Shown: positions 12,053 through 15,276 of the stretch, piece after piece
Position numbering within the stretch: the stretch's first letter is position 1
Layout of the letters: every line of letters starts with the position of its first letter
Origin: Marinobacter arenosus
GTDB lineage: Bacteria > Pseudomonadota > Gammaproteobacteria > Pseudomonadales > Oleiphilaceae
Length of the DNA stretch: 64,000 bases
Direction: 5' to 3'
Assembly: GCF_019264345.1 (NCBI RefSeq)
Contig: NZ_JAHVAO010000001.1
Coordinates: 1,302,001-1,366,000, forward strand
Program-made: the position numbers and the translations under genes
Notes under the pieces: generated by a model
What the model saw: only the letters and a program-made list of their open reading frames with translations
What the model was told of the DNA's origin: nothing
Databases searched by the model: none

Positions 12053-12784
12053 TCAGCCCGGCTTGCGGGCCACATACACGGTGTTGAACGATTCCCTGTT
12101 CTGGAACGGATTGAAGAAGGTTACAACATGGCAGGCGACATCGGTAAACACCTCTCGCAATACCGTCATGAACTCGTCATCTTCGCCTTCGTTTGACCAC
12201 ATGGCAAAAATGCCTCGCGGCTTGAGTTGCCTGGCCATCCGTCCGATGTTGTCCACGGTGTAGAAACTGGCGTTGGAATCGTGCAGCAGTGCCCGGGGCG
12301 AGTGATCAATGTCCAGCAGGATGGCGTCGAAGGTTTTGCCCGGGGACTCGGGATCGAAACCGCCCGTATCGGGCTCGGCGATAGCCAGGTCGAAGAAGCT
12401 GCCGTGGACATAACGACTGCGGGCATCGGCGTTGATATCGGCGCCAAGCGGCACCAGCGCCTGCTGGTGCCAGCGAATGACCGGCTCCAGGTACTCGACA
12501 ATCAACAACTCACCTACCCGCTCATGCTTGAGCGCGGCAACGGCCGTATAGCCCAGTCCCAGCCCGCCAACGACGACACTGAGGTTATCGCCTTCGGTTT
12601 CCTTCAGGCCAAGGTCCGACAGGGCGACCTCGGCGTCCACGAACATGCTGGACATCAGGAATTCTTCGCCCAGTTTGACCTCGAAGATATCCCGGTCGCC
12701 GATCGCCGGAATCTTCCGCCGCCGAAGGGTTATCTCACCGATTTCGGAGGGTTGGCTGTCGATTTGTTCGAAAAGAAGTCCCAA
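12053..12784 (-). CDS. Spermidine synthase-like methyltransferase-fold protein
   Basis: 243 aa with a Rossmann fold of the spermidine synthase group: VVVGGLGLGYTAVAAL (about residues 70-85) as the glycine-rich loop, LLIVEYLEPVI with the acidic residue that would contact the donor, and DAILLDIDHSP. The N-terminal half of true spermidine synthases is shortened, and the polyamine-site motifs are not evident, so the substrate is unknown. The TTG start at 12784 has AAGAGG 7 bases upstream, and the residues from it match the usual family N-terminus (LLFEQIDSQP). In a minus-strand run with the sirtuin. Confidence 0.7.
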   Translation of the reverse strand: MGLLFEQIDSQPSEIGEITLRRRKIPAIGDRDIFEVKLGEEFLMSSMFVDAEVALSDLGLKETEGDNLSVVVGGLGLGYTAVAALKHERVGELLIVEYLEPVIRWHQQALVPLGADINADARSRYVHGSFFDLAIAEPDTGGFDPESPGKTFDAILLDIDHSPRALLHDSNASFYTVDNIGRMARQLKPRGIFAMWSNEGEDDEFMTVLREVFTDVACHVVTFFNPFQNRESFNTVYVARKPG

Positions 12785-12838
12785 GGGTTTGCCTCTTTGT
12801 CTGGGTTCTTGGCTGGCCTGTTTTGGCTTTGTGCTATC

Positions 12839-12945
12839 GCAGGCGGTGCCCCCTTTTCAAAACCCGCTCCTTCGGCACGTCCATGTGACGCTTGAGCTAC
12901 GCCATCCATGGCTTCGCACAGTTTTGAAAAGCGAGCTCCGCCTGC
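12839..12945 (-). repeat. Inverted-repeat element, copy A (conserved core, AT-rich stem)
   Basis: Arms 12839-12863 and 12921-12945 pair at 22 of 25 positions and contain CTTTTCAAAAC / GTTTTGAAAAG. They enclose a 57-base core that, read on the minus strand, begins TGTGCGAAGCCATGGATGG and continues with AGCTCAAGCGTCACATGGA. Copy B at 13562 has nearly the same core but a completely different stem. It begins 9 bases beyond the DUF1415 stop codon. No coding sequence is supported here. Confidence 0.85.
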
Positions 12946-12953
12946 TCCCCGTT

Positions 12954-13517
12954 TTACTCCCCGGCGTTCCCGGAGTTCTTCAGACACTTCGTGAGAATAT
13001 CCCGCATTTTGTCAGCACCGAGGTTTTCCATCAGTTCGATGTTTCTCTGTGGAATCCCATCTACGTCCGGATAACTTTCAATCGCCGCTTCCAGACTGGC
13101 CTCGCGCAGCAGGTGAAGCATGGGATACGGCGACCGATTGGTGTAATTCTCCGCCGAATCCGGTCCTGTGCCTTCGAACTGATAATCCGGATGGAAGCTC
13201 GCAACCTGGTATACGCCTTCCATCTCGAGATAGGCCAACAAGCCATCGGCCGCATCCAGAAATTCATTGTAGGCGTCAAAATCCTGCAAAACACCGGGGT
13301 GAATCAGCACCGTGGTTTCAACGTCGGGCTCATCATCCAGACGCTGCAGCTCCGAGTGCAGTGCCTGCAGGAGGTCGTCTTCAGTCGTTGCCTCAGACAC
13401 CACGAACCGGACACGATTCCGGACCAGCTCGCGCTTGGCGAACGGACAAAGGTTGTAGCCAACGACTACGTCTTCAACCCATTTCCGGGATGCTTCAATT
13501 ACCGCTGCTTCGTTCAT
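12954..13517 (-). CDS. DUF1415 family protein
   Basis: 187 aa, the usual family length. Recognisable features are KWVEDVVVGYNLCPFAKREL near the N-terminus and a run of conserved Asp, His and Pro residues in TVLIHPGVLQDFDAYNEFL, followed by SFHPDYQFEG and the NRSPYPMLHLLRE segment. Function is unknown. I start at 13517 because AGGAATCGAGT precedes that ATG; the longer frame upstream runs into repeat copy B. It is the only gene in the window bracketed by two copies of the same inverted-repeat element. Confidence 0.85.
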   Translation of the reverse strand: MNEAAVIEASRKWVEDVVVGYNLCPFAKRELVRNRVRFVVSEATTEDDLLQALHSELQRLDDEPDVETTVLIHPGVLQDFDAYNEFLDAADGLLAYLEMEGVYQVASFHPDYQFEGTGPDSAENYTNRSPYPMLHLLREASLEAAIESYPDVDGIPQRNIELMENLGADKMRDILTKCLKNSGNAGE

Positions 13518-13561
13518 ACTCGATTCCTGTTGAAGCCGGCCGCAAACTCGGCAGTCTGGTC

Positions 13562-13669
13562 GGACAAGCGGGTCGGGCTGTCCAGAACTGTGCGGAGCCA
13601 TGGATGGCGGAGCTCAAGCGCCACATGGATGTGCTTGAGCGGGTTCTGGACAGCCCGACCCGCTTGTCC
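13562..13669 (+). repeat. Inverted-repeat element, copy B (conserved core, GC-rich stem)
   Basis: Perfect 27-bp arms at 13562-13588 and 13643-13669 (GGACAAGCGGGTCGGGCTGT and onward) enclose a 54-base core TGTGCGGAGCCATGGATGG...AGCTCAAGCGCCACATGGA. The core differs from copy A by about four substitutions and a 3-base gap, while the arms share no sequence with copy A. Oriented opposite to copy A and located 20 bases beyond the ybiT stop codon. Confidence 0.9.
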
Positions 13670-13689
13670 AGCCCCCGCAAAACCAAGAA

Positions 13690-15276
13690 TTAAAGGTAAC
13701 CCTGGCTCCGAAGGTAATCATCATAAGAGCCACTGAAATCCGTCACCCCATCCGCACTCAATTCGATAATGCGCGTCGCCAGCGAAGAAACAAACTCCCG
13801 ATCATGGCTGACAAAGATCAGTGTGCCGGGGTAGTTCTCCAGCGCCAGGTTCAACGCTTCGATGGACTCCATGTCCAGGTGGTTGGTGGGCTCATCCATC
13901 AACATCACGTTGGGCTTCTGCAGAATCAGCTTGCCAAAGAGCATACGACCCTGCTCACCACCTGAGATCACCCGTACCGATTTACCGATGTCATCACCCG
14001 AGAACAGCATCCGCCCGAGGGTGCCGCGCACCAGCTGCTCGCCGCCCGTCGTCCACTGGGCCATCCAGTCGGTCAGGGTTTCATCGTCGGCGAAATCGGC
14101 GGTGTGGTCCTGGGCGAAGTAGCCGACCTCGGCGCTGTCGGTCCACTTCACTTCGCCGCCGTCGGGCTCATAGGCGCCTGCCATGCACTGGAGCAACGTG
14201 GTTTTGCCGATGCCGTTGGGCCCGATGATGGCCACGCGCTCGCCGGCCTCGACCTGCAGGTTCAGTTTGTTGAACAGTGCCTCGCCGTCGAAGCCCTTCG
14301 TCAGGTCCTTCAGTGTCACCGCCTGGCGATGCAGCTTCTTGCCCTGCTCGAACCGGATGAACGGGCTGACCCGGCTGGACGGCTTCACCTCTTCCAGCTG
14401 GATCTTGTCGATCTGGCGGGCCCGGGAGGTGGCCTGCTTGGCCTTGGAGGCGTTGGCCGAGAACCGGCTGACGAACTGCTGCAGTTCGGCAATCTGGGCC
14501 TTTTTCTTGGCGTTGTCCGCCATCATGCGCTCGCGGGCCTGGGTGGCGGCGGTCATGTACTCGTCGTAGTTGCCGGGGAACAGCCTCAACTCCCCGTAAT
14601 CCAGGTCCGCCATGTGGGTGCACACGCTGTTCAGGAAGTGGCGGTCGTGGGAGATGATGATCATGGTGCTGTTCCGGGCCACCAGAATGTTTTCCAGCCA
14701 GCGGATGGTGTTGATATCCAGGTGGTTGGTGGGCTCATCGAGCAGCAGCACATCGGGATCGGAAAACAGCGCCTGGGCGAGCAATACCCGAAGCTTCCAA
14801 CCCGGAGCCAGGGCGCTCATCGGACCATTGTGCTCCTCAAGCGGAATTTCCAGGCCCAGCAACAGCTCGCCGGCGCGGGATTCGGCGGTGTAGCCATCCA
14901 TCTCGGCGAACTGTACTTCCAGGTCCGCCACGGCCATGCCGTCTTCCTCGCTCATCTCGGCCTGGGAATAGATCCAGTCCCGTTCCTTCTTCACCTGCCA
15001 GAGTTCTTCGTGGCCCATGATCACGGTATCCATCACCGTGCAGTCCTCGTAGGCAAACTGGTCCTGGCGCAGTTTACCCAGACGGACGTTCGGCTCCAGC
15101 ATGACCTGGCCGGACGACGGCTCGAGATCGCCACCGAGAATTTTCATCAGCGTGGATTTGCCGCAGCCGTTGGCGCCGATCAGGCCGTACCGGTTGCCAT
15201 TGCCGAATTTGGCAGACACGTTTTCAAACAGGGGCTTGGCCCCGAACTGCATGGTGATATTGGCGGTGGAAATCAA
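13690..15276 (-). CDS. ybiT: ABC-F family ATPase YbiT
   Basis: 528-aa soluble protein with two ABC ATPase domains, no membrane segments. First Walker [10 protein letters not shown] (about 35-43) and [11 protein letters not shown]; the first signature is degenerate ([11 protein letters not shown]), as in E. coli YbiT. The linker has the family runs [22 protein letters not shown]; second Walker [10 protein letters not shown] and normal signature [12 protein letters not shown] with [19 protein letters not shown] proteins act on the ribosome rather than transporting solutes. TTG start at 15276, the same N-terminal length as E. coli YbiT. Followed 20 bases later by repeat copy B. Confidence 0.93.

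Follow-up and report, generated by a model that had tools for sequence, protein, structure and literature searches.

The DNA around a DUF1415 gene of Marinobacter arenosus raises the question of what two neighboring repeats can be that have a core in common and enclose it in long stems of differing sequence, each stem being complementary within its own copy. Within the 64-kb window, meaning the whole 64,000-nt stretch of DNA analyzed, element A lies at 12839..12945 on the minus strand and element B at 13562..13669 on the plus strand. They are the two longest among the nine inverted repeats of the window (at least 16 nt, within 200 nt), and both are matched by the covariance model R1 described below, with E values of 7.7e-19 and 1.4e-24, respectively. 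Between them lies the DUF1415 gene (12954..13517, minus strand; PF07209, E 2.6e-71), and B is followed by the gene of an ABC-F family ATPase (13690..15276, minus strand; NF011646/PRK15064, 998.5 bits for a cut-off of 762), this family match replacing the label ybiT that a preliminary description of the locus had used. The placement given in that description holds: A and B stand in opposite orientation around DUF1415, A at 8 bases from the stop codon of DUF1415 and B at 20 bases from that of the ABC-F gene. The core strand of A is the DUF1415 strand, and that of B is antisense to both genes.

The observation of two structured inverted repeats with a common core is confirmed. For B, the inverted-repeat search delineated two arms of 27 nt (13562..13588 and 13643..13669) that are 100% complementary and separated by a core of 54 nt (13589..13642, also supported by alignment), in which the predicted fold contains hairpin 1, GCC-ATGGAT-GGC with an ANGGAN loop (13597..13608, in agreement with the alignment), and hairpin 2, also with an ANGGAN loop (13612..13640, with ACATGGATGT at 13623-13632), all on the plus strand. 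For A, the search and alignment gave, on the minus strand, a 5' arm (12921..12945) and a 3' arm (12839..12863) of 25 nt each with 88% complementarity and 57 nt between them (core, 12864..12920), and the predicted fold places hairpin 1, GCC-ATGGAT-GGC, at 12901..12912 and the loop region of hairpin 2, ACATGGACGT, at 12877..12886. The two stems had been called unrelated, which stands for their outer part, which differs from copy to copy. It does not stand for the inner 8-11 bp or so beside the core, which are semi-conserved (consensus GCTTTCCAAAAC / GTTTTGGAAAGC), the claim having compared the inner arm of A with the outer arm of B. Weak conservation was also seen in the flanks (e.g., 13540-13561 and 13670-13690), as a stretch of about 22 nt upstream of the stem together with a C-rich stretch 4-7 nt downstream of it, in a profile that is weighted by A/B orthologues.

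A and B are far from alone. BLAST of the whole genome with B returned 34 rows, about 23 of them true copies and the rest reverse-strand or chance matches. The core search, set as a test beforehand, was carried further with R1, a covariance model built from 22 of these copies. At E 0.1 it returned 33 rows, of which one duplicates another on the reverse strand, so that the genome contains 32 distinct places and not just two. The suspicion of a dispersed, structured family is borne out by these places and by the arms, since a core of 52-58 nt with complementary arms is found in all 22 aligned copies of this genome. When stem length is scored outward from the core (+1 for a match, -2 for a mismatch), the paired stretch measures 25-29 bp in 18 of the 22 copies (range 21-32, with 0-5 mismatches). 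Of the 342 unique elements obtained from all loci fetched, 299 have a paired stretch of 25-30 bp, 28-29 bp being the commonest lengths. Pairing rather than stem sequence is what is kept, as the preliminary description had proposed: among the 22 copies, 94.6% of the cells of the stem helix are paired and both-sided changes occur at 27 of its 28 pairs. Shifting the partner by one column lowers the pairing of the whole structure from 94.2% to 41.5-45.8%, and 0 of 500 shuffles matched the observed values of covariation and pairing.

Within the core, most copies carry GCC-ANGGAY-GGC as hairpin 1 and CAC-ANGGAN-GTG as hairpin 2. Over the 342 elements, hairpin 1 reads CCANGGAYGG, its GGA being imposed by the search pattern, which did not impose one on hairpin 2. 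The latter reads ACANGGANGU, in which neither N is fixed (N4: T182 G112 C34 A12; N8: T179 C147 G8 A6). GGA is present in hairpin 2 of 340 of the 342 elements, and its C, A, GGA, and G are nearly invariant (337-340 of 340). In both hairpins the loop is most often ATGGAT or ATGGAC, the fourth letter varying among T, G, C, and A. Of the 340 elements that have the second GGA, 337 place it 23-25 nt from the first, and 269 of the 342 cores contain at least four GGA.

This architecture recalls a known candidate RNA. An Rfam scan of 12700-13800 matched TwoAYGGAY (RF01731, clan CL00106) over the full model to B with 33.9 bits (E 0.0029) and to A with 25.3 bits (E 0.25), the other four rows being at chance level. 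The curated gathering cut-off of RF01731 is 43 bits; the best score in the M. arenosus genome (G000) is 42.6 bits (E 2.6e-5), and no match above the cut-off was obtained in any of five genomes, so that none of their copies is a member by Rfam's rule. At the gathering cut-offs, Rfam gave no match in the 64-kb window and only 5_ureB_sRNA and tRNA at 19 other loci. The RF01731 places, 12 in the M. arenosus genome and 29 in genome G017, are R1 places in 41 of 41 cases. TwoAYGGAY was described as a candidate RNA from human gut, gamma-proteobacteria, and Clostridiales (PMC2864571). It was later found to contain strong matches to the CsrA motif and CsrA binding was proposed; the same study calls the function unknown and describes the model's external stem as "not well conserved" (PMC4333381). 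The Marinobacter elements likewise have two hairpins with AYGGAY-type loops and, around both, an outer stem of poorly conserved sequence. Judged by this architecture and by the sub-threshold score, the family is akin to TwoAYGGAY, and we regard it as a real and strong structural family that is a high-copy variant of the known candidate. The excerpts of the TwoAYGGAY descriptions make no mention of a dispersed high-copy family with near-perfect stems specific to each copy, nor is a dispersed Marinobacter family like this one described among the titles and abstract openings listed in searches of the open-access literature.

The loops also resemble the sites of CsrA/RsmA, for which a SELEX consensus RUACARGGAUGU and an ANGGAN hexaloop with variable N have been reported (PMC7652899). 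Indeed, the elements carry ANGGAN hexaloops on short stems, in paired sites, and binding of CsrA/RsmA to them can be predicted with somewhat better than even odds. The sponge RNAs CsrB, CsrC, and RsmX/Y/Z share with the Marinobacter elements several GGA motifs, some of them in ANGGAN loops. These sponges, however, are one to few stand-alone genes with a promoter and a terminator, whereas the elements are tens of short copies with no visible promoter or terminator.

Our preferred reading, to which we give a probability of about 0.5, is that A and B are members of a dispersed, TwoAYGGAY-like, high-copy family of putative CsrA/RsmA-binding RNAs, the stem of which is re-matched by selection and by hairpin-templated mutation. 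The descriptive part of this reading (fold, strand, loops, spread, age of the sites, stems that drift while paired, and homogenised cores) is established by comparison of sequences, and the mechanism would run as follows. RNA of the core strand would fold two ANGGAN hairpins, 23-25 nt apart, on a stalk of mostly 25-30 bp; the two loops would bind one CsrA/RsmA dimer, and each copy would be able to hold or titrate CsrA. The stalk would present and stabilise the pair of sites or be cut by a double-strand RNase, its sequence being free and only its pairing selected. Template switching at the replication fork would copy a change from one arm to the other and so yield double changes in one step.

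The history of individual sites bears on how the stems arise. The preliminary description had raised the possibility that the stem is copied from the target site, and a stem generated in this way at insertion would fit two observations, namely that paralogous copies have similar cores and unrelated outer arms and that three relatives lack the element, even as a remnant, at one site of the M. arenosus genome (L040), which leaves room for a gain. However, the element is found at site A in 28 and at site B in 27 of 30 fetched Marinobacter loci (M. arenosus included), and a further site, C (L041), is occupied in 26 of 30 (M. arenosus included). Sites A, B, and C are therefore old and common across the genus, and their orthologous stems diverge by paired changes. 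Of the five misses at A and B, A in L109 and B in L113 are visible variants, B in L103 is without hairpin 1, B in L111 is half deleted, and A in L112 is absent. The outer arms also keep a weak memory of their site, with 7.03 mismatches of 16 between orthologues versus 8.47-8.48 otherwise. Eleven sites of the M. arenosus genome were compared with up to three close relatives (G016, G106, and G089), two of them (L045 and L046) being left out as mis-anchored. In alignments with the relatives, we read remnants of the element at L032, L047, L049, and L057; at L035 the element is present in G089, L031 has diverged too far in G016 for a judgement, and L044 in G016 (locus L193) has kept its stem and lost its core, a natural core-less derivative. 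Site C itself is empty in the three close relatives, but a fresh insertion there was set aside on account of its occupancy in 26 of 30 loci, which implies a loss in those relatives. No fresh insertion or gain is proven among the eleven sites and sites A, B, and C, and no empty site offered a lone target-derived arm that a loss would fail to explain. Taken together, a target-derived stem is very improbable. In G059 (L416), site C is taken by a stem of about 29 bp, nearly perfect, that encloses a short hairpin of quite another kind; this hairpin has no GGA loops and is followed by T-runs. Either the core has been swapped or a second type of long-hairpin element occupies the site. A paired stem can thus persist without a CsrA-type core.

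How stems change while paired was followed at A and B over 363 species pairs, which are non-independent: the differences comprise 1274 transversion-type and 838 transition-type double changes, together with one-sided or other differences amounting to 276 G-U, 24 A-C, 133 other, and 5 in which neither state is paired. The closest pairs, with 1-2 differing positions, show 21 doubles (8 transversion-type and 13 transition-type), 5 G-U, and no other difference. Along a divergence scale taken from the four-fold sites of the ABC-F gene, 729 comparisons of A and B, also non-independent, gave 4.3-7.5 both-sided versus 0.5-0.8 one-sided changes per 16 pairs, part of the large both-sided counts being indels common to both arms. 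Paired one-base indels of this kind are seen in A between L105 and L107 and between L096 and L097. Close pairs at site C (1-5 differing positions) gave 88 doubles, 13 G-U, and 16 other among 117 differences; intermediates consequently exist, and mismatches of a kind other than G-U are no rarity there, which weighs somewhat against the preferred reading.

A rival account of these figures is plain compensatory evolution, in which a functional stem is under selection and no special mutational mechanism takes part; this account differs from the preferred reading only in the template-switch step. It is in keeping with G-U pairs far above A-C (see below), as expected from selection on one folded strand, with the capacity of large bacterial populations to select weakly, and with the intermediates themselves, which make up 276 G-U and 157 mismatches at A and B and 29 of the 117 differences at site C. 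Nevertheless, transversion-type doubles cannot pass through G-U, and their excess is not predicted by compensation via G-U, the ratio to transition-type doubles being 1.5 to 1 where the number of possibilities would give 2 to 1. The paired indels and the stem kept around another core in G059 also count against this account, which we consider rather unlikely. Template switching has been proposed to make stems perfect, or keep them so, through multibase compensatory changes (PMC8794818), and the Marinobacter stems behave alike. The excerpts of that study deal with the histories of RNA genes, whereas here tens of stems evolve in parallel in each genome. Within the preferred reading, a contribution of template switching to stem change is rather probable in view of the doubles and indels. 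Hundreds of stems of the family have orthologues across many species, and the core serves as an internal control, so that one-step template switching versus slow compensation in RNA stems should be directly countable in strains.

The core evolves in the opposite manner. At the 25 loci where both sites are usable, the cores of A and B differ on average by 3.68 edits within the same genome, versus 8.19 edits between orthologous and 8.25 between unrelated cores. Extending the comparison to A, B, and C gave 4.89 edits within the same genome (27 comparisons), 7.54 at the orthologous site (550), and 7.53 for neither (1019), and none of 500 label permutations reached the same-genome mean (permutation mean 6.83, lowest 5.19). 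By this measure, the core bears no trace of orthology and a trace of within-genome kinship: cores are homogenised within a genome and stems drift while paired. It is this opposite evolution of core and stem, and not the existence of two odd repeats, that is striking. Our guess as to the cause of the homogenisation is ectopic gene conversion. Co-evolution with CsrA was set aside, the CsrA gene being single-copy in the nine genomes tested, a comparison of gene counts only. A bolder extension, which is doubtful at present, would have tens of self-folding, putative CsrA/RsmA-binding modules arrayed over the genomes of Marinobacter and many relatives in the order, each independent of its neighboring genes, with concerted cores and with stalks continually rewritten and re-matched by hairpin-templated copying. 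The array would then be a scattered sponge and also a natural experiment on how template switching shapes RNA stems. If true, CsrA would meet tens of dispersed binding modules and not a few sponge RNAs.

Which strand acts can be read from the exceptions to Watson-Crick pairing. Over the inner 25 pairs of the 342 elements, the core strand has 8133 Watson-Crick, 266 G-U, 23 A-C, and 128 other pairs, and 143 stems are without any exception; in the per-position table, position 24 is always paired, which is a register artefact. The elements were picked by Watson-Crick matches only, which does not favor G-U over A-C. When 33 loci fetched as A/B orthologues were removed, the remaining 293 elements, among which further orthologues may persist, had 7196 Watson-Crick, 260 G-U, 23 A-C, and 139 other pairs over 26 pairs (G-U versus A-C, p 5e-52). 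An A-C on one strand is a G-T on the other, and tolerance of G-U with hardly any A-C means that the core strand behaves as a folded single strand. The acting form is likely to be RNA of the core strand. The bias holds in every gene arrangement (G-U:A-C of 90:9 for '>>', 68:7 for '><', 32:0 for '<>') and is equally strong where both neighbors are antisense to the core ('<<', 57 versus 6).

The median distance of the elements to a stop codon, on whichever side, is 31 nt, and they lie further from start codons (66-69 nt), with neighboring genes called by our own codon-usage script. Their orientation is unbiased ('>>' 109, '<<' 95, '><' 78, and '<>' 42 of 342, with 13 elements missing one neighbor and 5 inside predicted genes). 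The proximity to stop codons and the neutral orientation fit an intergenic repeat. Weight-matrix scoring of the flanks, with matrices entered by hand, gave no clear promoter for the core strand: the upstream score versus shuffled sequence was 4.47 versus 4.40 for '<<' and 4.49 versus 3.88 for '>>', and promoter-like scores were higher inwards on both sides of the elements. The G-U bias in the '<<' arrangement, the unbiased orientation, and the lack of a clear promoter in these flanks make a read-through RNA awkward, and so the element may act as single-stranded DNA, either as a REP/BIME-like sequence or as an IS200/RAYT-type substrate with a hairpin-binding protein on one strand. Its intergenic, orientation-neutral position close to stop codons, the tolerance of G-T on one strand regardless of gene direction, and a copy number that spans 0 to at least 62 in a single genus would suit such an element. 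REP, BIME, and REPIN sequences are likewise short, palindromic, intergenic, and present in many copies; in the Marinobacter elements, by contrast, the middle is conserved and not the ends, the arms differ from copy to copy, and the Y1 transposase of RAYT systems is not required. This transposase (PF01797) has no match in the M. arenosus genome, is present in 34 of the 61 genomes of the genus, and is absent from high-copy genomes such as G008, G009, G019, G024, and G038, and it was consequently rejected as the driver of the family. The loop consensus of an RNA-binding protein and the lack of a proven fresh insertion among the sites compared weigh further against action as single-stranded DNA, which is unlikely on balance. 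In G004, 19 Y1 transposase matches accompany only 6 elements, and the two thus do not go together. As to a bias in replication strand, 18 of 31 copies in G089 would lie on one strand if position 1 were the origin; the first 4 kb of G089, which show no long plus-strand frame, do not bear this assumption out, and the count therefore carries no weight.

The position near stop codons could also suggest a bidirectional transcription terminator or a BIME-like stabiliser of mRNA 3' ends, and the T-run after the hairpin inside the G059 stem would go with it. T-runs (6 T in 8, looked for up to about 40 nt past the stem) are nonetheless scarce: of 341 copies, only 9 have one on the core strand and 24 on the opposite strand. 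This speaks against an intrinsic terminator, and neither function needs a strand-specific G-U bias or conserved loops. A role of this kind is accordingly quite improbable, and the putative CsrA/RsmA-binding RNA remains our preferred reading.

The family is widespread. R1 (E 0.01) has matches in 60 of 61 genomes of the genus, M. arenosus included, with 3 to at least 62 copies per positive Marinobacter genome, and G017 yielded 85 R1 rows, two of them reverse strands, for 83 places. The exception is the near-complete Marinobacter genome G049, in which neither R1, with filters stricter there, nor RF01731 found a copy. CsrA is present in G049, and the element family is therefore dispensable. Order-wide, 67 of 194 genomes have R1 matches, representing 39 of the 96 genera, and nine loci outside Marinobacter have the same folded architecture on long stems unrelated to one another.

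The exact 22-base core was found in at least 119 stretches, and 74 of 80 among the matches listed are from Marinobacter. The six others (L211, L225, L236, L254, L270, and L278) are core-bearing contigs labelled Planctomycetota, Planctomycetaceae, or Kuenenia. Of five of these loci that were folded, L211, L270, and L278 are multi-branched on long GC-rich stems that vary from copy to copy, and L225 and L254 have no clear multi-branched fold. R1 scores for these contigs are weak (E 0.009 to 0.31), and common origin, convergence, or mislabelled bins are candidate readings. Finally, a sister type with another core, in which the stem of hairpin 1 is extended (TTGCC/GGCAA) and hairpin 2 is CCCANGGATGGG, recurs in several Marinobacter species at a distance of about 1.4 kb from site C (L391, L393-L397, L403, L406, L408, and L410).
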